DNA of 64,000 bases, from contig NC_135261.1 of assembly GCF_964204865.1 (NCBI RefSeq), positions 11,346,001 to 11,410,000 on the forward strand. The letters are read 5' to 3'. The stretch comes from Styela clava. Taxonomy: Eukaryota; Chordata; Ascidiacea; Stolidobranchia; Styelidae. How positions within the stretch are numbered: the first letter of the stretch is position 1; each line of letters starts with the position of its first letter. Under the pieces are notes generated by a model, which ran no database searches, had not been told where the DNA came from, and saw only the letters and a list, made by a program, of their open reading frames with translations. A program made the position numbers and the translations under genes. Positions 30,450-63,960 of the stretch are shown in pieces.

Positions 30450-33105
30450 ATGAAGATTCTATTGTTACTTCTAGGCTGTTTGGCCGTAAGTATTTGATAA
30501 ATAGTGCCCTTCATGTCTTTTTATCAATTTTGCCAAAATTATAATGTTTACAGGTTGCCAATGCCGCTTTATACCAACCAAGTCATTGCGGATATGTTAC
30601 TTACAATGTTGGGCAATTTTACCGAATCAATTACGGATGTTACAGTTTCCGAAGCTACTACTGTCCTGCTTGGTTCACAACGAAATATTACTCTAATGTT
30701 CTGAAGAGCTATCCAGGAGAGAAATGCACAGAGGATGGATTCGTAGGTAATTCAGAATTGTATCTTGATATGTTTTCCTGAATAATTTGAGAAACACACA
30801 TTTTGAGGGCATGAATTTTTGTATTATAGAGATGACGGTCGACGTTTTTGAAGCTGAAGTTAAAAAACAATTGAAAGAAGTGGCCGATAAAATATATCTT
30901 GATATGCAACAAAAATATGAAGATTGGGATGAAACTGCAACAAATCAAAATACCGAGGCAAAGAAAAAGCACGAAGACGCTATCGAGGAATATGCAAAGC
31001 AGTATTTGAGGTTTGTATTTCTTCTTACAATTTTTTCTTACGTATTCTTTTTTTACTCAAATTACTAACATCGTGAATTTTTAGAATTACGGGATTGCAG
31101 GAAGAGTCAGAAGAAATGAAGGAGACCAACAAGAAGGCTATTGAAAATTATAATACAAAACTAGATTCATTGTTGGAAGAGGCAAAAAAAAATTATAACG
31201 ATGACATGCAGAAAAGATACGCTTGTGTGCTGGAATATCACGAAAAACTTGTCGAGAGGTGGGTTACTGTAAGTTTAAATGTCCGTTTACAAGAGAACGA
31301 AAATTCGAACCTTTCTTATTTCAGGTCTGTTACATGCTTCACCAATCGTTTAGCTAAAATAGCAGAATACAAAGAAGCTCTCGAAAAGCGCGTGACAGAG
31401 TACGAGACAAAGTATAAATGTGTCATGGAAGCCATCGTGAAACAGAGATCTGAAGTGTTCCAAAAACTCATATACAGAGCCCATTGTAAGTTTTTTCTAT
31501 TCTTTCGAATTTTGCACATACTTTTATTCATAATGGAACTTTACATCTAGGTTCTGAGGATTGGAACGAAGCAGAGGTTAATGCAGTTTTGGAGGCTTTC
31601 AAAACTAAAGAAACTCAATCATATCAAACACAGTTGGATGAATACACTACGAAGCTAACTGCAGCTATCGCAGAACTTGTGAAAAGCTACGCATGCGCTT
31701 ATCAGTGCGCTTACGGCGGAACTCTCTGTTTTGGCAGAAGTCAATTTTACACCAATTGGTAATTATAAATAAATGGAAGGTACATAGTATATATCAATAT
31801 AATTCTACTCCTGGTTTTTTCTTTATAGTCGAAGTATCGGGAAATGGTGGACGTACAGAATTACCACCCAAAGAAGTTGCTTCCGTTTCTTGACCTACAA
31901 ATTCCAATACAGGACAATCCAATACAAGCAACTGAAAAAATGTGAAACCGGTTAGTGCAATTCCTAAAAATTTTCCACAATTGTCTTTATGTTTCACTGA
32001 ATTTAATATTTTTATTACACTTAAGATGAAGTTAATATCACCGAACAAAAATTCAAAGAAGACCTTGATACCAAAGCTAAGACAATAATTGAATCTATGA
32101 AGAAAACATATGCTGAATGGTTTGCACAAGCAGAAATAACTAATCAGAAGGCATTGGAGTCTTTCAAAAAGATTGTTGATGAGAGACACAAATGTTTAAT
32201 AACGTATTATAAAGCAAATTGCTTAGTAAAGTAAGTGTCACAGTGAATAAGTATATCATAAGATGACATTTGGCACAATTGCTCTTTATATTTCCAGAAA
32301 CAATTGCATCACAGCAGACAACTTGACTTCCCTAGAAGAATATCAGAAATCATTAGACGAACAAAAGAAAGAAGCGATTGCAGAGTATGAAAAAAAGCTT
32401 GAGGAGCGCCTTTCTCGCGCTTCCAAGGCATACACTGACATGATTGATTGCCACGAGCAAAGGATCAATGAGCGAATTGCCAAATATGTTGCACAATATG
32501 CATCATGCCTATCTACCAGAAAGACAAAGATCGAAAACTACGAAAAGTGCTTATCGGAACGGTTTGAAAGAAGACTGAAATGCATTACAGAAAGATTGGA
32601 AAAGGTTGGCAGTGTGAAATTTTGTTCAAAAAATATGTATATATATTTATATAATTCTTGCAAAAATGTTTAGATTTCCCAACTCAGAATGGAACAGTAT
32701 TTGAAACTGCTTGAATTTTATATGGGCAAACCACTCGGCAACGAAGCTCAAGCATTGTACGACGCCTACCAAGCAAAAACGGAGACGGAACTCGCCGATA
32801 TAGTGACCAAGATTAAAGGAGACTGGGAGAAACATCTAAGTGATCTGAAGGAGCATTACGCTTGTGGATTCAAATGCACATACTGTGTGCAACTTCGAGA
32901 ACTCAGGATCCATTATAATTATCGCTGCGTGTTACCCACGTCTTCATCTTATTGCTTTGCTTACAAGCAATTCTGGTAAGTCATAGATACGTAATTGAAT
33001 TGAATCAAATTTTTCCCTGTTTAACAAATTCCTATTTTTAGCACGTACAAATCCTACCGCATTGTCAAGTATGGCGGATGCTTCAGATATGTCAGATGTG
33101 TATAA
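30450..33105 (+). CDS. Secreted modular Cys/aromatic-rich helical protein, copy 1 (650 aa, unrecognised family)
   Basis: Eleven exons: 30450-30485, 30554-30746, 30830-31010, 31085-31258, 31325-31485, 31551-31758, 31829-31950, 32026-32230, 32298-32604, 32674-32975, 33042-33105. All introns are GT-AG and phases agree, giving 650 residues. Signal peptide MKILLLLLGCLAVANA (1-16). Residues 17-76 are a Cys/Tyr-rich domain with FYRINYGCYSF. Residues 77-300 are Lys/Glu/Tyr-rich helix with sparse Cys (KRYACV, KYKCV). Residues 301-358 are a second Cys/aromatic domain (YACAYQCAY, then TYRITTQRSCFRF). Residues 359-590 are a second helical block. The C-terminal domain holds YACGFKCTYC, SYCFAY and SYRIVKYGGCFRYVRC. 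No transmembrane segment is seen after the signal. It is probably an extracellular, disulfide-linked structural or adhesive protein; no family is recognised and function is not assigned. The start is fixed by the signal peptide and TATA spacing. Confidence 0.88.
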
Positions 33106-33217
33106 ACGCCGGCAACATCAACCGAACGACAAGCGATCATGAAAATATTATTCATTTTAGTTTTAGATTAGGCTGATGAATTTATGCCAATTGCATTTAC
33201 CATCTGATGATATTGAC

Positions 33218-33223
33218 AATAAA
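33218..33223 (+). promoter_or_regulatory. Polyadenylation signal, gene copy 1
   Basis: AATAAA about 112 bp after the stop codon, conserved in copies 2 (45162) and 3 (55482). Gives a short 3' UTR. Confidence 0.7.
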
Positions 33224-33266
33224 TTCTAAGCAAATGCAAATAGAAGTGTTAAAATGTGGTTAGAGG

Positions 33267-33542
33267 CAATGTTCCCTCTAATTTCTTGTAGTATGTGTGC
33301 GCAGAAATTTTGGTATGTGCGCACTTTTTTGGAAATGGCTAATATTTGTGCAAAAACCAATGAAGAAATTTTGGCGTTCTAACCGGGTAATGGGTGGGCC
33401 AACAACAAACTTTCTCAACCTACCAACCGAGAAAATTGTTACATTACATCGAAATACGTCTGTGCGCAGTAAATCTATGCGTGTGCGCAGCCTCTGAAAG
33501 CTGTGTGCGCGCGCACACGCGCACACCTTAGAGGGAACACTG
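33267..33542. mobile_element. hAT MITE, 276 bp, unit 1 only
   Basis: The ends CAATGTTCCCTCTAA and, on the other strand, CAGTGTTCCCTCTAA differ by one base. A perfect 8-bp duplication GTTAGAGG flanks it (33259-33266, 33543-33550). Units 2 and 3 keep a single GTTAGAGG at the same place. The right third is rich in GTGTGCGC/GCGCACAC alternation. No coding capacity. Confidence 0.92.
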
Positions 33543-33550
33543 GTTAGAGG

Positions 33551-34352
33551 CATCTGTAGTGACCGGGATTTGAAAGTACGTGTGGATTGAACACTATTTC
33601 TATACCTTTACATGTAAAATTGTATTATGTAATAACATCAGTTACATACTTCGCAAAGCACAAAGCGCATTATTTTTCGACATGCATGCTTCATACTCCG
33701 TGTAACCCCCTTTATTTGCGACCCGGTAACGCCAGGGTGCAAATAGTAGAAAAAGCTGTTGTGTGGAAAATGCATTTCCCAAATCCTTGTTCAAGCACAA
33801 CCGATTTTTTCAAACTTATCATGAAAATTGTACTTCTAAAAATTGATAACGCGAGATGAAACCTTGAGCGATGCACAAGAAAACATCAAAATGGGAAATA
33901 CAGGTCAACTTGTTACGTTCAGGAATGACAAATGTTGGATGAGAAATGGAATTATAATGAAAATAATGTCTCTGAACAATCATATTATTGCAAATTCCGC
34001 AATTACGAAATATTAATACCATAACGGTAATATTTATGCTCCGGAAAAGAAAGTTTAAGAATCCTCACGTAAACTTCACAATCTGGTAATAATGACAACA
34101 TTAAATACAAAAACACCAGTAAAATTCAAATCATGCAAATCTCAGTATTTTCCGGTAACCGGGGCTTAAATTTGAAATATTCGTTTAAATTCACATATTT
34201 GTCCAGATAGTTTTGCAATAATTCAAGCATCTTCCAGATAAATTCAATTTTTACAGACTTGACGACATTTTTTGTAGAGTTCAAAATTCTACAAATTTTC
34301 TTCGAAATATTCGAAAATTTGAGATGTCATCAAAATTATACAATTGCGATAT
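33551..34352. other. 3' spacer of unit 1
   Basis: Gene-free sequence between the MITE and unit 2, repeated after gene copies 2 and 3 with few changes. The short frames here are not coding by any sign I can see. Confidence 0.5.
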
Positions 34353-34766
34353 ATTAGTCTTCTCTTCAACGATACACTCAAATTTTTAGGTAAGGTTCGA
34401 AATAATTGATTATTTTATAAATGAATGCAAATTTCACAAAATTGCCAATATTCGACCAACAGAAAATTCGGAACATCGATGGATGTTACTACAATTTTCA
34501 TAGTGCGATGTTTTGTCTTCTATAAACCGCGAATTCTAATTTTTACACTCGGGATTGGAAAAAATCGATATAATGCGAATATCTTTTGAATATATTTAAT
34601 TTTTACAAAGTTGACAACACTCAAATCTCAAAAATTGCTGGATATCACAAATATATTTTTTACCATAATACCTTCTGACATTGGTCCTCTCTCTATTTAA
34701 CGCAAAATTCAGGGTCTTGAACTTGGAACCGGAATTCTTTAAATGATGCAATTATCTGATAAACAT

Positions 34767-35443
34767 GAGGGCCTTACACAAATATATGGACACGAGAACC
34801 GAAACGAAACAATTCACCATCAATTCCCAGAAAACCATGCAATGTGCTTAACGAAGCTGTATTTTAAAACAGCTAATGTACGATAACTTACCAGTATGTT
34901 TAAAATGTTCGTTCCAATTTGAAAATTTTGTCCGAAATCAGGCAATCCAATACACTGCGCTTTTTAGCCTAAATATGTGGACTCTTTGACTAGTTTGAAG
35001 ACAGGCAATGATATGCCAATTCATAAATTTTGTCCCAAGTTAGGCAATGTCATGCAAATTTAAAATTTTTGTCCGGAATTTTGCAATTCCATTTTTTTGG
35101 TTAATGAAATTTATTCCACTACCAGACATTTGATATGCTCGACACTTACGCTATTAGAACTGAAATCTTCAATATGTTTTCTGTTTATAATACAGTAATA
35201 GTTTGTAACGAAACTTTCTTTATGAAAAAGCCTGCGACTTGTTCTTCGCGACTTACCGTACCTCGATGAGCAACACATCGCTTAAAAGGCGTGCTATTCC
35301 TAATTTTGATCAGGTCATCGTACACGGAAAAAAAATTCCATGAATCCCACAAAAACTTTGGAAAGGAATAAAAGTTCTAGTCTTCTAGCGAACAATACAA
35401 TCTTTGACCACTGGAAATTTCAAAGCAATTGTTCCAGTATTTA
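34767..35443. repeat. Old dispersed repeat, unit 2 copy
   Basis: Counterpart of 15792-16468, nearly identical, in the same place within the unit. Confidence 0.5.
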
Positions 35444-35798
35444 GAAAGAAAAATAAAAGATCAGAAGAAAATAACAAGTACAACATAATAACAAAACAAC
35501 ATATTATCACCCTGATAAAACATTAGGTTCAATTTTTTCGAAATTTGGCAGGAATTTCACTTGAATAGCGATGGTTCTGGAAACATCAATGCACTTTCAT
35601 CACCAAAAAATTGTACGACATCTTAACGTCAAAAAACGACAACATAAGGAAAATCCAGTTTCTAATCAATGTACATGTATTGTTAATATAAAAAATAAAA
35701 CCAATGCGCAACGGTGAACAATCGAATCACAGTTGAAAATAAGTGAATAGAGAATTCCTGTTCACCAAATGGTGTAATCCACAGACTCCGTGTTCTTT

Positions 35799-37150
35799 TC
35801 AGTTTTTTATAAAAAATGGCATTCTTGCATATTGTACTTTCTTGTTGTACCATAATGGTTCATTATAGAGATGGATATTGGCATTAGATGTTAATTCCTT
35901 ATATAGGTACCAGGTACAAAGTGTATCCTTAATTGTTATAAAATGAAGATTTTTTATGAAACGAGAGTTATACCATAAATTTCCTTTCAGTAAACAATGT
36001 ATTTCTATATCACGTAAATAATAAAGTTCAATGGTTTTCCAAATACTCTCTTTTGACTCATCTATGAGGTGATACAACCATTTCAGTTTTTGAAAAATAA
36101 AGGTACTTTCAACGTCTACCATTTCAATTCCACCTTTCATTTTTGGGCCAATCAATGTTTTACGTTTGATTCTTTCCCAATTTGAATTCCATAAAAAACG
36201 AAATATTAAAGAATTCAGTGATTTAACAAATTTTTTGGGAATAGTAACAGGTAAAAATGTAAATTGATATGTAAAGAGCGATAGAATTCATGATTTGATT
36301 ACACATACTTTTCCTAGAATTGTTAAATTTCTCCTACGCCAAATTTGAATAATGTTTTGTACTTGCTGCAACATAAACGGTAAGTTAAGTTCATATAGTT
36401 GTTTCAAATCAGCCGTAATTGTAATTCTCAATAATTTAAACTCATAAGTCCAGTTGAGATTGTGATGAATATTTTGTTCAATTATGCCACATTCAGTTCC
36501 AATATTCATTGCTTGTGATTTTCAGCATTTGTTTTGCATCCTGATACAGTTCAGCTGTTCGAAATAAGGTTTCAATGCTTTTAGATGAATCATCAGTGAA
36601 GACTATTGTATCATCTGCAGCTAGGGCTATTTTAATTTCGTTTTCTGCAATTTTATATCCAGTGATATCTTTATTATTACGAACCATCGTTGCGAAAATT
36701 TCTATTACTACAAGGAATAAATACGATGAGATTGGGTCGCCCTGATTAAGCCCGAATGCTATTAGCGACTGGAACAGGAAACACCATACGACACTATCAA
36801 ATATCCAATCCAATAATTGTACCAGGTATTTCATTGTATGTTGTATGGTTTATTATATCGCAAAGTAATCGTATGTTTTCTCCCATTTGTCTGTTTTGAA
36901 TAAAACCTCTTTGCTCTTTGTGAATTATATTGTTCATTACTGTTTGGATTTGTGTCGTGAGAACTTTACTTAAAATTTTGTAATCCGTATTCAATAGCGT
37001 AATGGGTCGATAGTTTTTTAAATTATCGGCGTCTTTTCCTTTCTTCAATATGAGGGTTATTATTCCATCACATTGAGTTTGGCTCATGTGACCAGTGATA
37101 CACGCCTGGTTATAACATTTCAGCAGAGAGTCTTTCAAATCTTCCCAAAA
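35799..37150 (-). pseudogene. LINE reverse-transcriptase fragment, unit 2 (uninterrupted)
   Basis: The same fragment as in unit 1 without the retrotransposon. The empty target CTTTC is at 36106-36110 within GGTACTTTCAACGTC. Carries RPITLLNTDYKILSKVLT, GLNQGDPISSYLF, AADDTIVF and LTILGKVCVIKS with the same frameshift after GLDI. The RPIT form, against LPIT in units 1 and 3, is a useful marker shared with unit 4. Confidence 0.85.
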
Positions 37151-37165
37151 GATTTTATGTTAATA

Positions 37166-38246
37166 ACGACCAACTCGACTTAATAGCGCAGACATGCGGA
37201 GATAATATCATAACAACACAATTACACTTGGATATATAAAACAAGCCCATATTTGTCTGTGATGATAGATCGTCCGGAAAAAGAGCGTTGACAATGTAGT
37301 CATTTTTTCCTAACTCAGGCTTTTTGTCGTTGTTTAATTGACCCCCGTGTCCATAAAATTAGACATTGTCTTCCCTAATATATATACGAATCATGACAGA
37401 GCCCACAAACACTAAGACAGACACCTGGAAATTATACATTGTGAATAAAATAGTGTTTGCGTCCCAACGCCGCATCATCTCTTCTCCTTGTTTCGATGCA
37501 AGTTTCAATGACTTGCGCCATAAAATACATGCGTATAATGAAAAGAGTTGTTCTATTCACAAAAGTCTAGTAATACTTTTTGGCGTTAGGATATTATACT
37601 TGTTGAAGGAGCAACTGGAACGCGTATTTAATTGAAACATTCTACGCAAATTGTTGAAATTAACTTTGGTTTGAAGATGAATGGGGTGATTTCCGAGTGC
37701 AATTATGCCTGAACACAAGTTTTAACAAATTTTGATGATGGCTGATCTTCGGTTTTCAATTATCCACTTCTTACAGGATGTAATCACAAACATTGTTTTG
37801 CTTACAATTTTTGAGCATCTATTATCTAAACAATGACATGTTTGGTTTGATTGACGTTGTCAAACGATATTTGACGCGAGTCAAAAGTCGAGTTGCACAT
37901 TGGCATATAAAACTTTTCCAGAAATAGAAATATTTATGCATGAGAAGAATCCGGGAAATATTGATGATATATAGAAATTTGTTTCGAATTACAAAAATAT
38001 ATCTCAAAATCCATATTTTTAAAGGCGCCCAATATGAAACTGTCCGCTAGTTGCAGGGGATGTAGTTGAATTATTTTTTGGAGATTCAGTATTCTCGGAG
38101 AATGACAACGTCAATCAATCAATCAATCAATCTATCGAAACATCAACATTTTGCTTCTAAAGTCTGCATACGTGTATGCAAAATAAACTGTTTGCTCTAC
38201 AATAAAGATATAAGTGTTTCATCGAAAAACAAATGTTTTACTTGTG
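37166..38246. repeat. Repeat R1, unit 2
   Basis: Near-identical counterpart of 26471-27552, including the 14-bp inverted repeat and the TCAA run. Confidence 0.7.
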
Positions 38247-38282
38247 TTTAATATGCATGTGTGATGTTCACACTCTTTGAGG

Positions 38283-38405
38283 CAGGGGTAGGCAACCTAA
38301 GGCCTGCGGGGCGAGAATCCTGCCCGCGACGTTTCACTGAAATATAGTAACAAAACACCCGTTTCGACGATTATATTCTATACGTAACAGAATTTATTGT
38401 GAGAC
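38283..38405. mobile_element. hAT left-end remnant, unit 2
   Basis: Counterpart of 27589-27711 with the same internal break after GTGAGAC. Confidence 0.65.
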
Positions 38406-38775
38406 GAGCAAATAAAGCAAATCATAACTATAGCGATTAAAAAAAAAACGTTACAAACTTGGCGCAAGACTCATTGCTGCTAAAAGGTCGCAAGTATGCA
38501 AGTATGCAATTATTTCGCTCACGACCAACTCGACCTAAAAGCGGGGACAAGCGAAAATGATATTATGACAACACAATTACACTTTGATATATGAATCAAA
38601 TCCATATTTGCTTGTGATAATAGATCGTCCGTAAAAATGGCGTTGAAAATGTAGTTATTTCTTCTTAACTTGAACTTTTTTTCGTTGTGAATTGACCCTC
38701 GTGTCCATAAAATTGGACATTGCTCTCTTATATATATACGAATCATTGAAAGGTCTACAATTATTAGAAAGACAA

Positions 38776-40025: not shown

Positions 40026-40115
40026 CAGTAATTACACATAGTAAATAAAATAACTGATGAAAAACCTTTTTCTTTGAAGGAGATCACAGGTCATGGAAGT
40101 TTAAGGACCGCTGTT

Positions 40116-42337: not shown

Positions 42338-42393
42338 AAGCGCACAACAGGGATTTGACAAGTCGTTGTTCAACAACCTGAATAAAGACGATC

Positions 42394-45049
42394 ATGAAGA
42401 TTCTATTGTTACTTCTAGGCTGTTTGGCCGTAAGTATTTGATAAATAGTGCCCTTCATGTCTTTTTATCAATTTTGCCAAAATTATAATGTTTACAGGTT
42501 GCCAATGCCGCTTTATACCAACCAAGTCATTGCGGATATGTTACTTACAATGTCGGGCAATTTTACCGAATCAATTACGGATGTTACAGTTTCCGAAGCT
42601 ACTACTGTCCTGCTTGGTTCACAACGAAATATTACTCTAATGTTCTGAAGAGCTATCCAGGAGAGAAATGCACAGAGGATGGATTCGTAGGTAATTCAGA
42701 ATTGTATCTTGATATGTTTTCCTGAATAATTTGAGAAACACACATTTTGAGGGCATGAATTTTTGTATTATAGAGATGACGGTCGACGTTTTTGAAACTG
42801 AAGTTAAAAAACAATTGAAAGAAGTGGCCGATAAAATATATCTTGATATGCAACAAAAATATGAAGATTGGGATGAAACTGCAACAAATCAAAATACCGA
42901 GGCAAAGAAAAAGCACGAAGACGCTATCGAGGAATATGCAAAGCAGTATTTGAGGTTTGTATTTCTTCTTACAATTTTTTCTTACGTATTCTTTTTTTAC
43001 TCAAATTATTAACATCGTGAATTTTTAGAATTACGGGATTGCAGGAAGAGTCAGAAGAAATGAAGGAGACCAACAAGAAGGCTATTGAAAATTATAATAC
43101 AAAACTAGATTCATTGTTGGAAGAGGCAAAAAAAAATTATAACGATGACATGCAGAAAAGATACGCTTGTGTGCTGGAATATCACGAAAAACTTGTCGAG
43201 AGGTGGGTTACTGTAAGTTTAAATGTCCGTTTACAAGAGAACGAAAATTCGAACCTTTCTTATTTCAGGTCTGTTACATGCTTCACCACTCGTTTAGCTA
43301 AAATAGCAGAATACAAAGAAGCTCTCGAAAAGCGCGTGACAGAGTACGAGACAAAGTATAAATGTGTCATGGAAGCCATCGTGAAACAGAGATCTGAAGT
43401 GTTCCAAAAACTCATATACAGAGCCCATTGTAAGTTTTTTCTATTCTTTCGAATTTTGCACATACTTTTATTCATAATGGAACTTTACATCTAGGTTCTG
43501 AGGATTGGAACGAAGCAGAGGTTAATGCAGTTTTGGAGGCTTTCAAAACTAAAGAAACTCAATCATATCAAACACAGTTGGATGAATACACTACGAAGCT
43601 AACTGCAGCTATCGCAGAACTTGTGAAAAGCTACGCATGCGCTTATCAGTGCGCTTACGGCGGAACTCTCTGTTTTGGCAGAAGTCAATTTTACACCAAT
43701 TGGTAATTATAAATAAATGGAAGGTACATAGTATATATCAATATAATTCTACTCCTGGTTTTTTCTTTATAGTCGAAGTATCGGGAAATGGTGGACGTAC
43801 AGAATTACCACCCAAAGAAGTTGCTTCCGTTTCTTGACCTACAAATTCCAATACAGGACAATCCAATACAAGCAACTGAAAAAATGTGAAACCGGTTAGT
43901 GCAATTCCTAAAAATTTTCCACAATTGTCTTTATGTTTCACTGAATTTAATATTTTTATTACACTTAAGATGAAGTTAATATCACCGAACAAAAATTCAA
44001 AGAAGACCTTGATACCAAAGCTAAGACAATAATTGAATCTATGAAGAAAACATATGCTGAATGGTTTGCACAAGCAGAAATAACTAATCAGAAGGCATTG
44101 GAGTCTTTCAAAAAGATTGTTGATGAGAGACACGAATGTTTAATAACGTATTATAAAGCAAATTGCTTAGTAAAGTAAGTGTCACAGTGAATAAGTATAT
44201 CATAAGATGACATTTGGCACAATTGCTCTTTATATTTCCAGAAACAATTGCATCACAGCAGATAACTTGACTTCCCTAGAAGAATATCAGAAATCATTAG
44301 ACGAACAAAAGAAAGAAGCGATTGCAGAGTATGAAAAAAAGCTTGAGGAGCGCCTTTCTCGCGCTTCCAAGGCATACACTGACATGATTGATTGCCACGA
44401 GCAAAGGATCAATGAGCGAATTGCCAAATATGTTGCACAATATGCATCATGCCTATCTACCAGAAAGACAAAGATCGAAAACTACGAAAAGTGCTTATCG
44501 GAACGGTTTGAAAGAAGACTGAAATGCATTACAGAAAGATTGGAAAAGGTTGGCAGTGTGAAATTTTGTTCAAAAAATATGTATATATATTTATATAATT
44601 CTTGCAAAAATGTTTAGATTTCCCAACTCAGAATGGAACAGTATTTGAAACTGCTTGAATTTTATATGGGCAAACCACTCGGCAACGAAGCTCAAGCATT
44701 GTACGACGCCTACCAAGCAAAAACGGAGACGGAACTCGCCGATATAGTGACCAAGATTAAAGGAGACTGGGAGAAACATCTAAGTGATCTGAAGGAGCAT
44801 TACGCTTGTGGATTCAAATGCACATACTGTGTGCAACTTCGAGAACTCAGGATCCATTATAATTATCGCTGCGTGTTACCCACGTCTTCATCTTATTGCT
44901 TTGCTTACAAGCAATTCTGGTAAGTCATAGATACGTAATTGAATTGAATCAAATTTTTTCCTGTTTAACATATTCCTATTTTTAGCACGTACAAATCCTA
45001 CCGCATTGTCAAGTATGGCGGATGCTTCAGATATGTCAGATGTGTATAA
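42394..45049 (+). CDS. Secreted modular Cys/aromatic-rich helical protein, copy 2 (650 aa)
   Basis: Exons 42394-42429, 42498-42690, 42774-42954, 43029-43202, 43269-43429, 43495-43702, 43773-43894, 43970-44174, 44242-44548, 44618-44919, 44986-45049. Every boundary keeps the constant offset of 11,944 from copy 1, so there is no net length change in exons or introns. Protein differences noticed against copy 1 are A85T, N202T and K414E, with silent changes at V31 (GTC) and D434 (GAT). All cysteines and the three Y-R-I modules are retained, so it should be functional. Domain layout is as for copy 1; no known family. Confidence 0.88.
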
Positions 45050-47420: not shown

Positions 47421-48719
47421 TCACCAAATGGCGTAATTCACAGACTCCGTGTTCTTTTCAGTTTTTTTAAAAAATGGCATTCTTGCATATTGTACTTTCT
47501 TGTTGTACCATAATGGTTCATTATAGAGATGGATATTGGCATTAGATGTTAATTCCTTATATATGTACCAGGTACAAAGTGTATCCTTAATTGTTATAAA
47601 ATGAAGATTTTTTATGAAACGAGAGTTATACCATAAATTTCCTTTCAGTAAACAATGTATTTCTATATCACGTAAATAATAAAGTTCAATGGTTTTCCAA
47701 ATAATCTCTTTTGACTCATCTATGAGGTGATACAACCATTTCAGTTTTTGAAAAATAAAGGTACTTTCAACGTCTACCATTGCAATTCCACCTTTCATTT
47801 TTGGGCCAATCAATGTTTTACGTTTGATTCTTTCCCAATTTGAATTCCATAAAAAACGAAATATAAAAGAATTCAGTGATTTAACAAATTTTTTGGGAAT
47901 AGTAACAGGTAAAAATGTAAATTGATATGTAAATAGCGATAGAATTCATGATTTGATTACACATACTTTTCCTAGAATTGTTAAATTTCTCCTACGCCAA
48001 ATTTGAATAATGTTTTGTACTTGCTGCAACATAAACGGTAAGTTAAGTTCATATAGTTGTTTCAAATCAGCCGTAATTGTAATTCTCAATACTTTAAACT
48101 CATAAGTCCAGTTGAGATTGTGATGAATATTTTGTTCAATTATGCCACATTCAGTTCCAATATTCATTGCTTGTGATTTTCAGCATTTGTTTTGCATCCT
48201 GACATAGTTCAGCTGTTCGAAATAAGGTTTCAATGCTTTCAGATGACTCATCAGTGAAGACTATTGTATCATCTGCAGCTAGGGCTATTTTAATTTGAGA
48301 TTGGATCGCCGTGATTAAGCCCGAATGCTTTTAGTGACTGGAACAGGAAACACCATTCGACACTATCAAATATCCAATCCAATAATTGTACCAGGTATTT
48401 TATTGTATGTTGTATGGTTTATTATATCGCAAAGTAATCGTATGTTTTCTCCCATTTGTCTGTTTTGAATAAAACCTCTTTGATCTTTGTGAATTATATT
48501 GTTCATTACTGTTTGGATTTGTGTCGTGAGAACTTTACTTAAAATTTTGTAATCCGTATTCAATAGCGTAATGGGTAGATAGTTTTTTAAATTATCGGCG
48601 TCTTTTCCTTTCTTCAATATGAGGGTTATTATTCCATCACATTGAGTTTGGCTCATGTGACCAGTGATACACGCCTGGTTATAACATTTCAGCAGAGAGT
48701 CTTTCAAATCTTCGCAAAA
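47421..48719 (-). pseudogene. LINE reverse-transcriptase fragment, unit 3 (extra 89-bp deletion)
   Basis: As in unit 2 but lacking 89 bp (junction near 48297), which removes sequence between the QGDP block and the catalytic AADD block. An A-run change near 47466 alters the C-terminal frame. The empty BEL target CTTTC is at 47764-47768. Confidence 0.85.
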
Positions 48720-48734
48720 GATTTTAGGTTAATA

Positions 48735-52648: not shown

Positions 52649-52657
52649 TATATATAC
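52649..52657 (+). promoter_or_regulatory. TATA box of gene copy 3
   Basis: TATATATAC, same spacing as in copy 1. Confidence 0.75.
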
Positions 52658-52713
52658 AAGCGCACAACAGGGCTTTGACAAGTCGTTGTTCAACAACCTG
52701 AATAAAGACGATC

Positions 52714-55369
52714 ATGAAGATTCTATTGTTACTTCTAGGCTGTTTGGCCGTAAGTATTTGATAAATAGTGCCCTTCATGTCTTTTTATCAATTTTGCCAA
52801 AATTGTAATGTTTACAGGTTGCCAATGCCGCTTTATACCAACCAAGTCATTGCGGATATGTTACTTACAATGTTGGGCAATTTTACCGAATCAATTACGG
52901 ATGTTACAGTTTCCGAAGCTACTACTGTCCTGCTTGGTTCACAACGAAATATTACTCTAATGTTCTGAAGAGCTATCCAGGAGAGAAATGCACAGAGGAT
53001 GGATTCGTAGGTAATTCAGAATTGTATCTTGATATGTTTTCCTGAATAATTTGAGAAACACACATTTTGAGGGCATGAATTTTTGTATTATAGAGATGAC
53101 GGTCGACGTTTTTGAAGCTGAAGTTAAAAAACAATTGAAAGAAGTGGCCGATAAAATATATCTTGATATGCAACAAAAATATGAAGATTGGGATGAAACT
53201 GCAACAAATCAAAATACCGAGGCAAAGAAAAAGCACGAAGACGCTATCGAGGAATATGCAAAGCAGTATTTGAGGTTTGTATTTCTTCTTACAATTTTTT
53301 CTTACGTATTCTTTTTTTACTCAAATTACTAACATCGTGAATTTTTAGAATTACGGGATTGCAGGAAGAGTCAGAAGAAATGAAGGAGACCAACAAGAAG
53401 GCTATTGAAAATTATAATACAAAACTAGATTCATTGTTGGAAGAGGCAAAAAAAAATTATAACGATGACATGCAGAAAAGATACGCTTGTGTGCTGGAAT
53501 ATCACGAAAAACTTGTCGAGAGGTGGGTTACTGTAAGTTTAAATGTCCGTTTACAAGAGAACGAAAATTCGAACCTTTCTTATTTCAGGTCTGTTACATG
53601 CTTCACCACTCGTTTAGCTAAAATAGCAGAATACAAAGAAGCTCTCGAAAAGCGCGTGACAGAGTACGAGACAAAGTATAAATGTGTCATGGAAGCCATC
53701 GTGAAACAGAGATCTGAAGTGTTCCAAAAACTCATATACAGAGCCCATTGTAAGTTTTTTCTATTCTTTCGAATTTTGCACATACTTTTATTCATAATGG
53801 AACTTTACATCTAGGTTCTGAGGATTGGAACGAAGCAGAGGTTAATGCAGTTTTGGAGGCTTTCAAAACTAAAGAAACTCAATCATATCAAACACAGTTG
53901 GATGAATACACTACGAAGCTAACTGCAGCTATCGCAGAACTTGTGAAAAGCTACGCATGCGCTTATCAGTGCGCTTACGGCGGAACTCTCTGTTTTGGCA
54001 GAAGTCAATTTTACACCAATTGGTAATTATAAATAAATGGAAGGTACATAGTATATATCAATATAATTCTACTCCTGGTTTTTTCTTTATAGTCGAAGTA
54101 TCGGGAAATGGTGGACGTACAGAATTACCACCCAAAGAAGTTGCTTCCGTTTCTTGACCTACAAATTCCAATACAGGACAATCCAATACAAGCAACTGAA
54201 AAAATGTGAAACCGGTTAGTGCAATTCCTAAAAATTTTCCACAATTGTCTTTATGTTTCACTGAATTTAATATTTTTATTACACTTAAGATGAAGTTAAT
54301 ATCACCGAACAAAAATTCAAAGAAGACCTTGATACCAAAGCTAAGACAATAATTGAATCTATGAAGAAAACATATGCTGAATGGTTTGCACAAGCAGAAA
54401 TAACTAATCAGAAGGCATTGGAGTCTTTCAAAAAGATTGTTGATGAGAGACACGAATGTTTAATAACGTATTATAAAGCAAATTGCTTAGTAAAGTAAGT
54501 GTCACAGTGAATAAGTATATCATAAGATGACATTTGGCACAATTGCTCTTTATATTTCCAGAAACAATTGCATCACAGCAGATAACTTGACTTCCCTAGA
54601 AGAATATCAGAAATCATTAGACGAACAAAAGAAAGAAGCGATTGCAGAGTATGAAAAAAAGCTTGAGGAGCGCCTTTCTCGCGCTTCCAAGGCATACACT
54701 GACATGATTGATTGCCACGAGCAAAGGATCAATGAGCGAATTGCCAAATATGTTGCACAATATGCATCATGCCTATCTACCAGAGAGACAAAGATCGAAA
54801 ACTACGAAAAGTGCTTATCGGAACGGTTTGAAAGAAGACTGAAATGCATTACAGAAAGATTGGAAAAGGTTGGCAGTGTGAAATTTTGTTCAAAAAATAT
54901 GTATATATATTTATATAATTCTTGCAAAAATGTTTAGATTTCCCAACTCAGAATGGAACAGTATTTGAAACTGCTTGAATTTTATATGGGCAAACCACTC
55001 GGCAACGAAGCTCAAGCATTGTACGACGCCTACCAAGCAAAAACGGAGACGGAACTCGCCGATATAGTGACCAAGATTAAAGGAGACTGGGAGAAACATC
55101 TAAGTGATCTGAAGGAGCATTACGCTTGTGGATTCAAATGCACATACTGTGTGCAACTTCGAGAACTCAGGATCCATTATAATTATCGCTGCGTGTTACC
55201 CACGTCTTCATCTTATTGCTTTGCTTACAAGCAATTCTGGTAAGTCATAGATACGTAATTGAATTGAATCAAATTTTTTCCTGTTTAACATATTCCTATT
55301 TTTAGCACGTACAAATCCTACCGCATTGTCAAGTATGGCGGATGCTTCAGATATGTCAGATGTGTATAA
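52714..55369 (+). CDS. Secreted modular Cys/aromatic-rich helical protein, copy 3 (650 aa)
   Basis: Exons 52714-52749, 52818-53010, 53094-53274, 53349-53522, 53589-53749, 53815-54022, 54093-54214, 54290-54494, 54562-54868, 54938-55239, 55306-55369, a constant offset of 22,264 from copy 1. Differences noticed: N202T and K414E shared with copy 2, K502E private, and V31 GTT and A85 as in copy 1. So its 5' half matches copy 1 and its 3' half matches copy 2, consistent with recombination between units. Structure and cysteines are intact. Confidence 0.88.
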
Positions 55370-55481
55370 ACGCCGGCAACATCAACCGAACGACAAGCGA
55401 CTATGAAAATATTATTCATTTTAGTTTTAGATTAGGCTGATGAATTTATGCCAATTGCATTTACCATCTGATGATATTGAC

Positions 55482-55487
55482 AATAAA
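55482..55487 (+). promoter_or_regulatory. Polyadenylation signal, gene copy 3
   Basis: AATAAA at the position matching copies 1 and 2. Confidence 0.7.
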
Positions 55488-55535
55488 TTCTAAGCAAATG
55501 CAAATAGAAGTGTTACAATGTGGTTAGAGGCATCT

Positions 55536-56332
55536 GTAGTGACCGTGATTTGAAAGTACGTGTGGATTGAACACTATTTCTATACCTTTACATGTAAAAT
55601 TGTATCATGCAATAACATCAGTTACAAACTTCGCAAAGCACAAAGCGCTTTATTTTTAGACATGCATGCTTCATACTCCTTGTAACCCCCTTTATTTGCG
55701 ACCCGGTAACGCCAGGGTGCAAATAGTAGAAAAAGCTGTTGTGTGGAAAATGCATTTCCCAAATCCTTGTTCAAGCACAACCGATTTTTTCAAACTTATC
55801 ATGAAAATTGTACTTCTAAAAATTGATAACGCGAGATGAAACCTTGAACGATGCACAAGAAAACATCAAAATGGGAAATACAGGTCAACTTGTTACGTTC
55901 AGGAATGACAAATGTTGGATGAGAAATGGAATTATAATGAAAATAATGTCTCTGAACAATCATATTATTGCAAATTCCGCAATTACGAAATATTAATACC
56001 ATAACGGTAATATTTATGCTCCGGAAAAGAAAGTTTAAGAATCCTCACGTAAACTTCACAATCTGTTAATAATGACAATATTAAATACAAAAACACCAGT
56101 AAAATTCAAATCATGCAAATCTCAGTATTTTCCGGTAACCGGGGCTTAAATTTGAAATATTCGTTTAAATTCACATATTTGTCCAGAAAGTTTTGCAATA
56201 ATTCAAGCATCTTCCAGATAAATTCAATTTTTACAGACTTGACGACATTTTTTGTAGAGTTCAAAATTCTACAAATTTTCTTCGAAATATTCGAAAATTT
56301 GAGATGTCATCAAAATTATACAATTGCGATAT
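55536..56332. other. 3' spacer of unit 3
   Basis: Gene-free counterpart of 45216-46012, nearly identical to it. Confidence 0.5.
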
Positions 56333-56746
56333 ATTAGTCTTCTCTTCAACGATAAACTCAAATTTTTAGGTAAGGTTCGAAATAATTGATTATTTTATAA
56401 ATGAATGCAAATTTCACAAAATTGCCAATATTCGACCAACAGAAAATTCGGAACATCGATGGATGTTACTACAATTTTCATAGTGCGATGTTTTGTCTTC
56501 TATAAACCGCGAATTCTAATTTTTACACTCGGGATTGGAAAAACTCGATATAATGCGAATATCTTTTGAATATATTTAATTTTTACAAAGTTGACAACAC
56601 TCAAATCTCAAAAATTGCTGGATATCACAAATATATTTTTTACCATAATACCTTCTGACATTGGTCCTCTCTCTATTTAACGCAAAATTCAGGGTCTTGA
56701 ACTTGGAACCGGAATTCTTTAAATGATGCAATTATCTGATAAACAT

Positions 56747-57423
56747 GAGGGCCATACACAAATATATGGACACGAGAACCGAAACGAAACAATTCACCAT
56801 CAATTCCCAGAAAACCATGCAATGTGCTTAACGAAGCTGTATTTTAAAACAGCTAATGTACGATAACTTACCAGTATGTTTAAAATGTTCGTTCCAATTT
56901 GAAAATTTTGTCCGAAATCAGGCAATCCAATACACTGCGCTTTTTAGCCTAAATATGTGGACTCTTTGACTAGTTTGAAGACAGGCAATGATATGCCAAT
57001 TCATAAATTTTGTTCTAAGTTAGGCAATGTCATGCAAATTTAAAATTTTTGTCCGGAATTTTGCAATTCCATTTTTTTGGTTAATGAAATTTATTCCACT
57101 ACCAGACATTTGATATGCTCGACACTTACGCTATTAGAACTGAAATCTTCAATATGTTTTCTGTTTATAATACAGTAATAGTTTGTAACGAAACTTTCTT
57201 TATGAAAAAGCCTGCGACTTGTTCTTCGCGACTTACTGTACCTCGATGAGCAACACATCGCTTAAAAGGCGCGCTATTCCTAATTTTGATCAGGTCATCG
57301 TACACGGAAAAAAAATTCCATGAATCCCACAAAAACTTTGGAAAGGAATAAAAGTTATAGCCTTCTAGCGAACAATACAATCTTTGACCACTGGAAATTT
57401 CAAAGCAATTGTTCCAGTATTTA
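56747..57423. repeat. Old dispersed repeat, unit 4 copy
   Basis: Counterpart of 15792-16468. Confidence 0.5.
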
Positions 57424-57741
57424 GAAAGAAAAATAAAAGATCAGAAGAAAATAACAAGTACAACATAGTAACAAAACAACATATTATCACCCTGATAAAA
57501 CATTAGGTTCAATTTTTTCGAAATTTGGCAGGAATTTCGCTTGAATAGCGATGGTTCTGGAAACATCAATGCACTTTCTTCACCAAAAAATTGTACGACA
57601 TCTTAACGTCAAAAAACGACAACATAAGGAAAATCCAGTTTCTAATCAATGTACATGTATTGTTAATATAAAAAATAAAACCAATGAGCAACGGTGAATA
57701 ATCGAATCACAGTTGAAAATAAGTGAATAGAGAATACCTAT

Positions 57742-59039
57742 TCACCAAATGGCGTAATTCACAGACTCCGTGTTCTTTTCAGTTTTTTTAAAAAATGGCA
57801 TTCTTGCATATTGTACTTTCTTGTTGTACCATAATGGTTCATTATAGAGATGGATATTGGCATTGGATGTTAATTCCTTATATATGTACCAGGTACAAAG
57901 TGTATCCTTAATTGTTATAAAATGAAGATTTTTTATGAAACGAGAGTTATACCATAAATTTCCTTTCAGTAAACAATGTATTTCTATATCACGTAAATAA
58001 TAAAGTTCAATGGTTTTCCAAATAATCTCTTTTGACTCATCTATGAGGTGATACAACCATTTCAGTTTTTGAAAAATAAAGGTACTTTCAACGTCTACCA
58101 TTTCAATTCCACCTTTCATTTTTGGGCCAATCAATGTTTTACGTTTGATTCTTTCCCAATTTGAATTCCATAAAAAACGAAATATAAAAGAATTCAGTGA
58201 TTTAACAAATTTTTTGGGAATAGTAACAGGTAAAAATGTAAATTGATATGTAAATAGCGATAGAATTCATGATTTGATTACACATACTTTTCCTAGAATT
58301 GTTAAATTTCTCCTACGCCAAATTTGAATAATGTTTGGTACTTGCTGCAACATAAACGGTAAGTTAAGTTCATATAGTTGTTTCAAATCAGCCGTAATTG
58401 TAATTCTCAATACTTTAAACTCATAAGTCCAGTTGAGATTGTGATGAATATTTTGTTCAATTATGCCACATTCAGTTCCAATATTCATTGCTTGTGATTT
58501 TCAGCATTTGTTTTGCATCCTGACATAGTTCAGCTGTTCGAAATAAGGTTTCAATGCTTTCAGATGACTCATCAGTGAAGACTATTGTATCATCTGCAGC
58601 TAGGGCTATTTTAATTTGAGATTGAATCGCCGTGATTAAGCCCGAATGCTTTTAGTGACTGGAACAGGAAACACCATTCGACACTATCAAATATCCAATC
58701 CAATAATTGTACCAGGTATTTTATTGTATGTTGTATGGTTTATTATATCGCAAAGTAATCGTATGTTTTCTCCCATTTGTCTGTTTTGAATAAAACCTCT
58801 TTGATCTTTGTGAATTATATTGTTCATTACTGTTTGGATTTGTGTCGTGAGAACTTTACTTAAAATTTTGTAATCCGTATTCAATAGCGTAATGGGTCGA
58901 TAGTTTTTTAAATTATCGGCGTCTTTTCCTTTCTTCAATATGAGGGTTATTATTCCATCACATTGAGTTTGGCTCGTGTGACCAGTGATACACGCCTGGT
59001 TATAACATTTCAGCAGAGAGTCTTTCAAATCTTCCCAAA
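57742..59039 (-). pseudogene. LINE reverse-transcriptase fragment, unit 4
   Basis: Shares the 89-bp deletion and the C-terminal frame change with unit 3, but has RPIT and the TCTTCCCAAAAGATTTTATG end of unit 2. Empty BEL target CTTTC at 58085-58089. Confidence 0.85.
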
Positions 59040-59055
59040 AGATTTTATGTTAATA

Positions 59056-59960
59056 ACGACCAACTCGACTTAATAGCGCAGACATGCGGAGATAATATCA
59101 TAACAACACAATTACACTTAGATATATAAAACAAGCCCATATTTGTCTGTGATGATAGATCGTCCGGAAAAAGAGCGTTCACAATGTAGTCATTTTTTCC
59201 TAACTCAGGCTTTTTTGTCGTTGTTTAATTGACCCTTGTGTCCATAAAATTAGACATTGTCTTCCCTAATATATATACGAATCCTGGCAGAGCCCACAAA
59301 CACTAAGACAGACACCTGGAAATTATACATTGTGAATAAAATAGTGTTTGCGTCCCAACGCCGCATCATCTCTTCTCCTTGTTTCGATGCAAGTTTCAAT
59401 GACTTGCGCCATAAAATACATGCGTATAATGAAAAGAATTGTTCTATTCACAAAAGCCTAGTAATACTTTTTGACGTTAAGATATTATACTTGTTGAAGG
59501 AGCAACTGGAACGCGTATTTAATTGAAACATTCTACGCAAATTGTTGAAATTAACTTTGGTTTGAAGATGAATGGGGTGATTTCCGAGTGCAATTATGCC
59601 TGAACACGAGTTTTAACAAATTTTGATGATGGCTGATCTTCGGTTTTCAATTATCCACTTCTTACAGGATGTAATCACAAACATTGTTTTGCTTACAATT
59701 TTTGAGCATCCATTATCTAAACAATGACATGTTTGGTTTGATTGACGTTGTCAAACGATATTTGACGCGAGTCAAAAGTCAAGTTGCACATTGGCATATA
59801 AAACTTTTCCAGAAATAGAAATATTTATGCATGAGAAGAATCCAGGAAATATTGATGATATATAGAAATTTGTTTCGAATTGCAAAAATATATCTCAAAA
59901 TCCATATTTTTAAAGGCGCCCAATATGAAACTGTCCGCTAGTTGCAGGGGATGTAGTTGA
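59056..59960. repeat. Repeat R1, unit 4 (3' end lost)
   Basis: Follows R1 to GTTGAATG, then about 245 bp present in units 1-3 are missing, including the right arm of the inverted repeat, and hAT sequence begins. Confidence 0.7.
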
Positions 59961-59967
59961 ATGTAGT

Positions 59968-60387
59968 AGAATCCCACCCGCGACGTTTCACTGAAATATA
60001 GTAACAAAACACCCGTTTCGACGATTATATTCTATACGTAACAAAATTTATTGTGAGACACGTGTAGACTAAATCATATTATAATCTAACAAGTAGAAAA
60101 TTAATGAGCCTATAATTTCATTATAATTAGACAAATGTCAACAAAACGCAGAAACGTTGATGCTAGGTGCAAAGGGTTCAATGGCGCCAAAAATCTTCAA
60201 ATGAAATTTTTTGATGCAATGTAATGAGGAAAGAAATCTATAGTCTATTCGAGAAATGTACCACTGCTTGATTTTTATTATAAAAAGTATCATCCGTTTG
60301 ATTTCAAACTTTCTAGAATTATGTGCGCCCGCCATTATTGCCACCCTTGATTTTGGCCCGCGAGCGACAAAAGGTTGCCGACCCTTG
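59968..60387. mobile_element. hAT right-end remnant, unit 4
   Basis: Overlaps the left-end remnant of units 1-3 from AGAATCC to GTGAGAC, then continues to GGCCCGCGAGCGACAAAAGG and the terminus TTGCCGACCCTTG. Read on the other strand this gives CAAGGGTCGGCAACCTTTTG, complementary in type to the CAGGGGTAGGCAACC left end of units 1-3. CTTTAGAG after it loosely matches CTTTGAGG before the left end. Confidence 0.7.
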
Positions 60388-60523
60388 CTTTAGAGATCGG
60401 GTGTGTAAGATCACTGTCTGTCAACAAATTATATGAAAAATTAAGACAAGATTTTCTAATTCAGATCTATTCATAACAGACACGCATTCATAAAACCTTC
60501 GGTACAAGTCTATTAAAATTTGA

Positions 60524-60696
60524 CTAGAATTTCCCTTGCATTGCGATGGCTCTGGAAACACCAGTGCACGTCACAGAAACAAATGTACGGCATCTTAACT
60601 CCAAAAAATGACAATATAAGAAAAATCCAGTTTCTAATTAATGTTCATGTCTGGCTAATACAAAAAAAAAAACGAATGGACAACGGTAATAAAGCA
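60524..60696. repeat. Diverged extra copy of an in-unit sequence
   Basis: Resembles 57537-57690 (TAGAATTTCCCTTGCATTGCGATGG, GTACGGCATCTTAACTCC, AAAAATCCAGTTTCTAAT) at clear divergence. It is present only in unit 4 because units 1-3 lost this segment. Confidence 0.6.
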
Positions 60697-60789
60697 AATC
60701 ATAACTATAGCGATTAAAAAAAAAACGTTACAAACTTGGCGCAAGACTCATTGCTGCTAAAAGGTCGCAAGTATGCAATTATTTCGCTC

Positions 60790-62256
60790 ACGACCAACTC
60801 GACCTAAAAGCGGGGACAAGCGGAAATGATATTATGACAACACAATTACACTTTGATATATGAATCAAATCCATATTTGCTTGTAATAATAGATCGTCCG
60901 TAAAAATGTAGGTATTTCTTCTTAACTTAAACTTTTTTTCGTTGTTAATTGACCCTCGTGTCCATAAAATTTGACATTGCTCTCTTATATATATACGAAT
61001 CATTGAAAGGTCTACAATTATTAGAAAGACAACAGTAATCACACATGGTTAATAAAATAACTGATGAAAACCCTTTTCTTTGAAGGAGATCACAGGTCAT
61101 GGAAGTTTGAGGACCGCTGTCAGGATAGGATGGGATTCACATATTTATCCCGGGGGAGAAGAAAGCCGATAAGACGGCTTATCCATATGGCGAACCACGG
61201 CCTCTCGTCCGGTTACCATTCCAAGTCCGGTATGTGATTAGTTATATTGTTTGTTTTTGAAAGCATGGACTTGGTGGTGGAGGAAGCTGTAACCGACCAG
61301 CCGTTACGTGAACCACCCAGCGACGGCGAGGAGTCCAGCAATCCGCTCGCACATAACCATCCCTGCATGGGATTCGAACCTGCGAACCTACGCAGAGTAA
61401 TTAGAGGTGCGGTGGCGAGCGTATTTCTAACGCTTCACCCGTTGAGCCACACCGCCGCGCCTGTTCTAGTTGCTGACGCGCCAACGTCGCATCATCTCTT
61501 CTCCTTGCTTGGATGCAAGTTTCAATGACTTGCGTCAAGACATACGTGTGCATAATGACGAGAATTGTTTTATTCAAGAAAGTCTACAAATAGATTTCGA
61601 CGATGAGATTTTATACTTGTAGATAGAGCAACTGCACCGCGTTTTTTATTAAACATTCTTCGCAAATTGTTGAAACTGACTTCGGTTTGAAGATGAATGA
61701 AGTGATGTTCGAGTGCAATTATGCCTGAACACGAGTTCTAACAAATTTTGATGATGGCTGATTCTCGGTTTTCGATTATCCACTTCTTAAAGGGTGTAAT
61801 CACAAACATTGTTTTGCTTACAATTTGTGAGCATCTATTATCTAAACAAAGACATGTTTGGTTTGATTGACGTTGTTAAACAATATTTGAAGCAATTCAA
61901 AAGTCGACACACATTAGCATGTTGAACTTCTCCAGAAATAGAAATATTTATGCATGAGCAGAATCCGGAAAATATTGATGAAGTATGGAAATTTCGTTCG
62001 AATTACAAAAAAAATATCTCAAAGTCCATATTTTTGAAGGCGCCTAATATGAAACTATCCGCTAGATGTTAGGTAAGCAGTTGAAATATTCTTTTCGGAT
62101 TCAGTATTCTCGGAGAATGACAACGTCAATCAATCAATCAATCTATCGAAATATCAACGTTTTGCTTCCAAAGTTTGCATACGTGTATGCAAAATAAATT
62201 GTTTGTTCTAACATACGGATATAAGTGCTTCATCGAAAACAAACGTTTTAAATGTG
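60790..62256. repeat. Repeat R2 with embedded SINE, unit 4
   Basis: Counterpart of 27827-29306. Its first 330 bp are more diverged than in the other units, while the part after the SINE is almost identical. Confidence 0.7.
61122..61460 (-). repeat. tRNA-derived SINE, unit 4
   Basis: Same length as in unit 1; A and B boxes intact. Confidence 0.85.
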
Positions 62257-63334
62257 ATATCATTTATACGGATATGACAGCTCTTCATCAAAAATATAAT
62301 AATCTTCAAAATTGGTATTTAACTCGACATTTTGTGTTTTTGCCTTGAATGCGATGGAAATTCACTTAAATTATTTAGTACTTTTCAACTTTACCATGTT
62401 GAAGTAGGATTCAAATGTTTTGAGAATTCCAAATTCCAAAATAAAATTTTCGACTCCGAGACCTGTGACGAAACGTTATGAAACTGGATATTTCAACTTT
62501 ATTGGTGTTGTCTCGACATTAATTCAATCGTTATCTTTTCATTTGGGGGTTGTGGTTGGCGTTAGATATATATAATATATGTTTAAATGCCAGCAATTGA
62601 ACAGAACATAAAATTCGTTTTGAAATTAATTGGACTATTCTACACTAATTTCTGCTTTATCATTTTGAAGGTGAAAAAATAGTTCCAACTCCAATACCAC
62701 TGACAACGAGTGAAATATTCTTCGTGTGCAAAATTCATGTTCAAATAACTCATATTACAGTGTTCAATCATTATGGCTATTTCAGATACAATGTTGATGC
62801 TCATATAATCAGGGAAAATTTTTGATTGATTGACGCTGTCAAGCATGAGAACGTCAATCAATCTATGATTCAAAAGTCGTACATTTTGATTGTTAAAATA
62901 ATTGTATGCGTATGCCAATAAGTAAATAATAAAAATAAAGTGTCGTTGAAAAACTGCTATGTTTTTAGTAATGCTCTTCAATTGGATGTAATACCTGTTG
63001 ACTAACTATCTTCAATCCTGAAGTTATATTTATATAAACAATGCGCACTGATGAAGTGAATAGCTATGCCGAGGTGGTATCCCATTAGTTGAAAAATAAT
63101 GTACTTCACAATATAAAGATTAATTAACAATTACCATTTTACTAAATGCACAATGATGGAAGATTTAAATGAAATAAACTGAACTTTCTGTTATAACTAC
63201 GGCATAGCGATTCGAGGCAAACATTTGTTGCGCTTATGACAATTTCAATCATTGTGGTCGAGACAAGAGATCACTAATGTAACATTAAAACCCAAATGAG
63301 CTGGTACTTGAATTTGGAGGGAGGGGAGAAATCC
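62257..63334 (+). promoter_or_regulatory. Upstream region of gene copy 4
   Basis: Counterpart of 29307-30384; carries the unit 2 form GAGCTGGTACTTG. Confidence 0.4.
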
Positions 63335-63343
63335 TATATATAC
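63335..63343 (+). promoter_or_regulatory. TATA box of gene copy 4
   Basis: TATATATAC, same spacing as in copy 1. Confidence 0.75.
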
Positions 63344-63399
63344 AAGCGCACAACAGGGATTTGACAAGTCGTTGTTCAACAACCTGAATAAAGACGATC

Positions 63400-63960
63400 A
63401 TGAAGATTCTATTGTTACTTCTAGGCTGTTTGGCCGTAAGTATTTGATAAATAGTGCCCTTCATGTCTTTTTATCAATTTTGCCAAAATTATAATGTTTA
63501 CAGGTTGCCAATGCCGCTTTATACCAACCAAGTCATTGCGGATATGTTACTTACAATGTCGGGCAATTTTACCGAATCAATTACGGATGTTACAGTTTCC
63601 GAAGCTACTACTGTCCTGCTTGGTTCACAACGAAATATTACTCTAATGTTCTGAAGAGCTATCCAGGAGAGAAATGCACAGAGGATGGATTCGTAGGTAA
63701 TTCAGAATTGTATCTTGATATGTTTTCCTGAATAATTTGAGAAACACACATTTTGAGGGCATGAATTTTTGTATTATAGAGATGACGGTCGACGTTTTTG
63801 AAGCTGAAGTTAAAAAACAATTGAAAGAAGTGGCCGATAAAATATATCTTGATATGCAACAAAAATATGAAGATTGGGATGAAACTGCAACAAATCAAAA
63901 TACCGAGGCAAAGAAAAAGCACGAAGACGCTATCGAGGAATATGCAAAGCAGTATTTGAG
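63400..63960 (+). CDS. Secreted modular Cys/aromatic-rich helical protein, copy 4 (exons 1-3 only)
   Basis: Exons 63400-63435, 63504-63696 and 63780-63960, offset 32,950 from copy 1; the remaining exons lie beyond the window. It encodes the same signal peptide, first Cys/aromatic module and the start of the first helical block. V31 is GTC as in copy 2, and residue 85 is Ala as in copies 1 and 3. No break is visible in the part present. Confidence 0.85.

Follow-up and report, generated by a model that had tools for sequence, protein, structure and literature searches.

Comparison with described extracellular proteins

Tunicates build large extracellular structures. About half of the oikosins, the proteins of the Oikopleura house, are without similarity to known proteins, and gene duplication is described as important among them (PMC3390340). 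Here we report on a gene of the ascidian Styela clava that occurs in tandem copies within a window of 64000 bases without any N (NCBI assembly GCF_964204865.1, contig NC_135261.1, positions 11,346,001 to 11,410,000, forward strand; coordinates below are positions of this window). It encodes a cysteine-rich protein of 650 residues with two predicted helical rods, whose secretion is predicted from a signal sequence. An earlier, model-made reading of the same DNA without database searches (the sequence-only reading) had proposed an unrecognised secreted protein family in which three copies of one cysteine module alternate with two charged helical blocks. Our analysis suggests, with about even chances, that the product is a secreted structural protein made in bulk and linked by disulfides between its cysteine blocks into an extracellular fibre or net.

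Like the oikosins, the Styela protein would be a secreted tunicate matrix protein, in our case by prediction, and the two are likened by description and not by sequence. The term 'coiled coil' does not occur in the main text of the oikosin source (PMC3390340). Alpha-helical coiled coils in an animal extracellular thread have been described for Dreissena byssus proteins (Simmons et al. 2023, as cited in PMC11754198), again a comparison by description. According to PMC11754198 these proteins come from bacteria by horizontal transfer, whereas the Styela gene has ten introns and no bacterial relative was found in the searches made. A bacterial origin was considered and rejected; of 13 matches in a pattern scan of genome contigs, 0 were confirmed by tblastn. 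Long hendecad rods with an 11-residue period, as in the Styela protein, are described from FilP and Scy of actinobacteria in a further source (PMC9858780). These are bacterial cell-division proteins with no sequence relation found in our searches, and the Styela protein differs from them by its signal sequence and many cysteines.

Internal duplication and predicted helical rods

The protein falls into two halves, residues 17-312 and 313-650, that align with 25% identity over 279-283 columns (expectation value (E) of 4e-23, or of 2e-15 once composition is corrected for). Because charged helical proteins may resemble each other by composition, we ran controls on this alignment. Its score is 215 (z 17.5), whereas 1000 shuffles scored 52.6 on average and 95 at most, 1000 shuffles within ten-residue blocks scored 67.9 on average and 123 at most, and the reversed half scored 97. 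The alignment order follows the exons, with exon 3 having its counterpart in exon 8, exons 4 and 5 in exon 9, and exon 6 in exon 10; other exon pairs, too, had scores higher than chance, which is what similar helices should give. The two-half layout is an internal duplication in which each half consists of a cysteine block and a rod; the alternation of modules and rods results from it, a point that goes beyond what the sequence-only reading had stated.

A structure model built from two sequences (mean predicted local distance difference test score (pLDDT) 49.5; predicted template modelling score (pTM) 0.31) gave, at this low confidence, three helices per rod, termed A, B and C below. They comprise residues 80-139, 146-247 and 255-303 in rod 1 and residues 365-428, 433-546 and 551-594 in rod 2, with lengths that are alike between the rods (60, 102 and 49 versus 64, 114 and 44 residues). 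The structure prediction that the sequence-only reading had called for thus returned three helices per rod, but was too poor to resolve packing and disulfides.

The long helices B showed a hydrophobic power of 12.0 and 13.2 at a period of 11/3 residues, compared to 1.1 and 1.1 at 3.5. The peak was at 3.66 in both helices and was reached by 0 of 3000 shuffles in either; the period was 3.65-3.67 with three residue sets. Both long helices therefore have the period near 3.667 of hendecads and not the period near 3.5 of a canonical heptad coiled coil. In PMC9858780, hendecads are described as having very minor supercoiling and hydrophobic residues chiefly at positions a, d and h. These sites were hydrophobic in 22 of 28 and 23 of 31 cases when ILMVAFYWC were counted, but with ILMV alone other registers win, so that the register is not unique. 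Two further patterns were rejected: a tyrosine-containing hendecad core (14 of 16 if the register counts tyrosine as hydrophobic, 3 of 8 and 3 of 8 with an ILMV-only register) and a 15-residue repeat suspected by eye in the long helices (spectrum peak 3.66; power at 3.75 of 1.2 and 1.3). With spacings of 33 and 11 residues, C478, C511 and C522 of the second long helix would lie on one face. The earlier interpretation is supported in part, namely with regard to a signal sequence, to cysteine-rich blocks with predicted helical rods between them, and to no known family having been found. The long helices show a hendecad and not a heptad periodicity.

An 11-residue period is also found in the helices of exchangeable apolipoproteins, whose repeats are punctuated by proline. 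The rods match the corresponding domain PF01442 weakly, with 15.9 and 17 bits (14.3 bits for the whole protein), and one could imagine a secreted amphipathic-helix carrier of this type, with lipid-binding helices and accessory cysteine blocks. We regard this as very unlikely: the scores fall far short of the 90-bit cut-off, the mature chain contains no more than 0.8% proline, and 29 cysteines would be unexpected in such a carrier.

Cysteine modules

The YRI...C signature was found at residues 35 (YRINYGCYSF), 327 (YRITTQRSCFRF) and 635 (YRIVKYGGCFRY), and cysteines 24, 41, 318, 335, 630 and 643 all lie where the sequence-only reading had placed them. Of 20000 shuffles of the mature sequence, 4 contained the signature once and 0 contained it twice, compared to three occurrences observed, although the pattern was defined post hoc. 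For module 1, the claim that one and the same module occurs three times held for this short motif only. By alignment, modules 2 and 3 appear weakly related (score 50, z 3.6; maximum 53 in 1000 shuffles and 61 in 1000 block shuffles), but module 1 gave no alignment above chance with either module 2 or module 3 (z 0.5 and -0.8) and has nothing beyond the YRI...C motif in common with them. A likeness of YRI...GC[FY]x[FY] to the beta/gamma-crystallin motif was considered and dropped, the three modules having no match in Pfam up to E 10.

The signal sequence at the N-terminus is of a standard kind and ends with VANA/ALYQ, as read by eye. The full chain contains 30 cysteines and the mature chain, cleaved behind residue 16, contains 29; this number is odd, and therefore at least one cysteine has no partner inside the same chain. 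Four and seven cysteines are located in rods 1 and 2, respectively, by the rod/module split used here. The sequence-only reading had described them as lying in Y-x-C contexts, which, read by eye, is true for C184 and C227 but not for the other 9 of 11.

Ends genes encode secreted mucus proteins. A Styela counterpart of the endostyle-specific Ends1-type proteins of ascidians would make our protein a secreted component of the mucus food net and a member of a known, if obscure, family. The primers for quantitative polymerase chain reaction of Ciona Ends1 (AB010895; PMC7347631 Table 5), when read by eye in one frame, give EELDKKR, 56 residues, and NYVACHM. This puts a Y-x-x-C site, like QYASC497 and NYEKC511 of the Styela protein, behind a charged stretch. 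The likeness is weak, with only 14 residues of Ends1 known from the primers, and no Ciona protein was among the matches of our word-based full-length and half-profile searches. We consider an Ends1 relationship quite improbable. A look-up of the Ends1 peptides returned no protein and was uninformative, the query being mostly X and the peptides perhaps being passed over by word sampling.

Relatives and family searches

The same protein is present at NCBI as the uncharacterized LOC120330333 of Styela clava, which is identical to the product of gene copy 1 in 648 of 650 residues (two differences; the products of copies 2 and 3 each show three). The family can accordingly be called unrecognised only in the sense of unnamed, because NCBI already lists the protein. 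No known family was matched in Pfam, NCBIfam, PDB or protein searches. With the whole protein, each of the three modules and both rods as queries, Pfam gave nothing that reached a curated cut-off. For the whole protein only ANG-1, DUF2277 and Apolipoprotein were listed up to E 1, all sub-cut-off, and no von Willebrand D or mucin domain, as looked for with a gel-forming mucin in mind, was among the Pfam matches up to this value. NCBIfam gave two families only (16.3 and 8.5 bits versus cut-offs of 50 and 350), and the best match of the PDB sequence search had an E of 0.21. A match of the whole protein to a characterised family was thus looked for and not found in these collections.

Among the 7989 candidates scored in the full-length protein search, at least two proteins had E<=1e-3, the two found being from Styela clava. 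A profile of the two halves was scored against 5352 candidates and returned, up to E 0.1, one protein, likewise from Styela clava. Neither search matched a species beyond Styela clava, but both need shared five-residue words and may miss fast-evolving relatives in other tunicates. Because no relative has been found outside Styela clava so far, the protein is a candidate for a new animal structural protein. We found no paper naming both Styela clava and LOC120330333, and nothing on the protein was found in the titles and abstract openings of the further papers surveyed; 'uncharacterized' and 'LOC1203' do not occur in the main text of the Styela endostyle transcriptome paper (PMC9953650).

The second match, the uncharacterized LOC144430467 of Styela clava (NCBI), is a paralogue with 89% identity in the alignment that is without nearly all sequence from residue 530. 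It is a broken copy or has a mispredicted end, since its terminal residues PTQNGTVFETA equal another reading frame of the exon 10 start. It retains 21 of the 30 full-chain cysteines, while 3 are replaced and 6 fall into gaps; of these 9, 7 belong to the aberrant end after residue 529, whose alignment carries little meaning.

Possible assembly and function

For a secreted, cysteine-rich, two-rod protein encoded by a tandem array, a bulk structural product is the best fit, and the disulfide-linked extracellular filament, matrix or adhesive protein of the sequence-only reading would be plausible. After removal of the signal peptide the chain would consist of two rods, each built around a very long amphipathic helix (about 100 residues) whose hendecad period is almost straight, with two shorter flanking helices able to fold back. 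The cysteine modules at the start, middle and end could then form disulfides within and between chains and so connect the rods, either end to end or side by side, in an extracellular fibre or net. In such a scenario, a one-rod unit would have given rise to the two-rod protein by internal duplication, and the two-rod gene would have been amplified in tandem, probably for dosage. The endostyle with its mucus net is a weak lead for the site, and the tunic, egg coat and haemocytes are possible.

A more specific version, a fibre protein particular to styelids with near-straight hendecad rods as the load-bearing element, locked end to end by cysteines and array-amplified for dosage, is in our view rather doubtful. 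If true, the styelid hendecad fibre would stand apart from collagen, heptad coiled-coil silks and mucins among the extracellular materials of animals. The protein itself is a concrete candidate for work on fibre formation, since it has a clear gene model, a repeat unit that is defined, a helical period other than the heptad and a locus with several copies.

Several points weigh against the structural-protein reading. In blocks of ten residues, pLDDT was 22-43 in the cysteine modules and 41-47 in the latter half of helix B of rod 2. Helix ends are uncertain with so poor a model, which gives neither packing nor disulfides. Over whole rods the hydrophobic peak was at 3.64 and 3.71 with a power at 11/3 of 4.3 and 5.0, so that the hendecad is clean in the long helices only, and the ends of these helices were taken from this weak model. 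A heptad-like signal was seen at lag 7 in rod 1 (z 2.3), and 3 of the 63 listed windows of 28 residues scored no lower than the 99th percentile of shuffles for a heptad. The protein may instead have a globular helical role in lipid or ligand binding. In favour of the structural-protein reading, the aligned parts of LOC120330333 and LOC144430467 show fewer differences in the signal and cysteine modules 1-2 (5 of 139 positions) than in the rods (43 of 375; Fisher p 0.006), but the regions were picked after the data were seen.

Furthermore, the product could be a rapidly evolving egg-coat, sperm or haemocyte protein, its restriction to one species reflecting reproductive or immune divergence and not a fibre role. 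The finding of relatives in Styela clava only, by word-based searches, and the recent tandem copies agree with this explanation. Nevertheless, we consider it unlikely: copies 1-3 have 6 variable coding sites in total, 4 of them protein-changing, which is too few for measuring selection or testing for an excess of replacements.

Gene structure and tandem array

The gene model of copy 1 was rebuilt from the window and comprises 11 exons (30450-33105, plus strand, as are all gene features given here). It yields exactly the 650 residues of the sequence-only reading, and the exon joins proposed there agree with the independent NCBI prediction LOC120330333, whose containing the same protein supports the splicing. 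All 10 introns are GT-AG, 65-83 base pairs long, with phases 0,1,2,2,1,2,1,2,0,2. A TATA-like box, TATATATA, was read directly at 30385-30392, and this box lies 58-65 bases upstream of the ATG in all four gene copies. The gene model assigns the start of the signal peptide to exon 1 (30450-30485) and its end, together with cysteine module 1 (C24, C41, C49, C70), to exon 2 (30554-30746). From gene model and structure prediction, exon 3 (30830-31010) encodes helix A of rod 1, and exon 6 (31551-31758) helix C and the start of cysteine module 2 (YACAYQC...C308); between them, and supported by periodicity as well, exons 4 (31085-31258) and 5 (31325-31485) encode the first and second part of hendecad helix B. 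Exon 7 (31829-31950) holds cysteine module 2 (C318, YRI, C335, C356) in the gene model. By gene model and half-versus-half alignment, exon 8 (32026-32230) encodes helix A of rod 2, exon 9 (32298-32604; also by periodicity) most of its hendecad helix B, and exon 10 (32674-32975) the end of helix B together with helix C and the larger part of cysteine module 3. The gene model ends with exon 11 (33042-33105), which contains the end of module 3 (C630, YRI, C643, C649) and the stop. An AATAAA at 33218-33223, read directly 3' of the stop, is the likely polyadenylation signal.

The range 30450-63960, to which the sequence-only reading referred, spans three complete gene copies and the start of a fourth. 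By comparison with copy 1, copies 2 (42394-45049) and 3 (52714-55369) are intact with every splice site preserved, and copy 4 (63400-64000) is truncated after exon 3 by the window end. The copy starts are spaced by 11944, 10320 and 10686 bases (units of 10.3-11.9 kilobases). In a self-comparison of the window, long common blocks of the units were 98.7-99.6% identical and shorter blocks as low as 97.4%. Compared with copy 1, copy 2 has 5 and copy 3 has 4 differences in 1953 coding bases; in 3207 non-coding bases the numbers are 15 and 10, respectively. Unit length and single-base differences speak against a simple assembly repeat, without ruling one out. The NCBI 90% cluster of this protein has 25 member sequences.

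Surroundings of the array

Upstream of the array, 2287-12605 contains charged helical frames and a Ser/Arg-rich open frame of 707 residues (10482-12605). Four frames of this region had no Pfam match above cut-off (one weak CENP-Q match, 16.7 bits versus 28.5); a likeness to a class XVIII myosin tail would be a guess. Region 15363-17134 is 96% identical to the region 3' of copies 1-3 (34353, 46013, 56333). It appears to be an incomplete unit that marks the left array edge, because the window self-comparison found no gene match further left.

Immediately beside it, a long terminal repeat (LTR) retrotransposon of BEL/Pao type has inserted close to where the array begins on the left (17135-25413). 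Its terminal repeats are 99-100% alike, DUF1759 and an integrase zinc-binding domain exceed their Pfam cut-offs, and the reading frame is interrupted. Comparing its flanks with the empty site in another unit revealed a 5-base target duplication, CTTTC. Broken reverse transcriptase pieces of long interspersed nuclear element (LINE) type recur in the units on the minus strand (25804-26464, 36493-37159, 48366-48728, 58687-59049); the piece at 48366-48728, the only one scanned, matches RVT_1. Finally, each copy is preceded by two instances of a diverged repeat with an identity of about 86%, at 26770-27546 and 28531-29300 for copy 1 and with counterparts at 37464/40475, 49034/50795 and 59355/61481 for the others, and may, as a guess, have contributed to unequal crossing-over.

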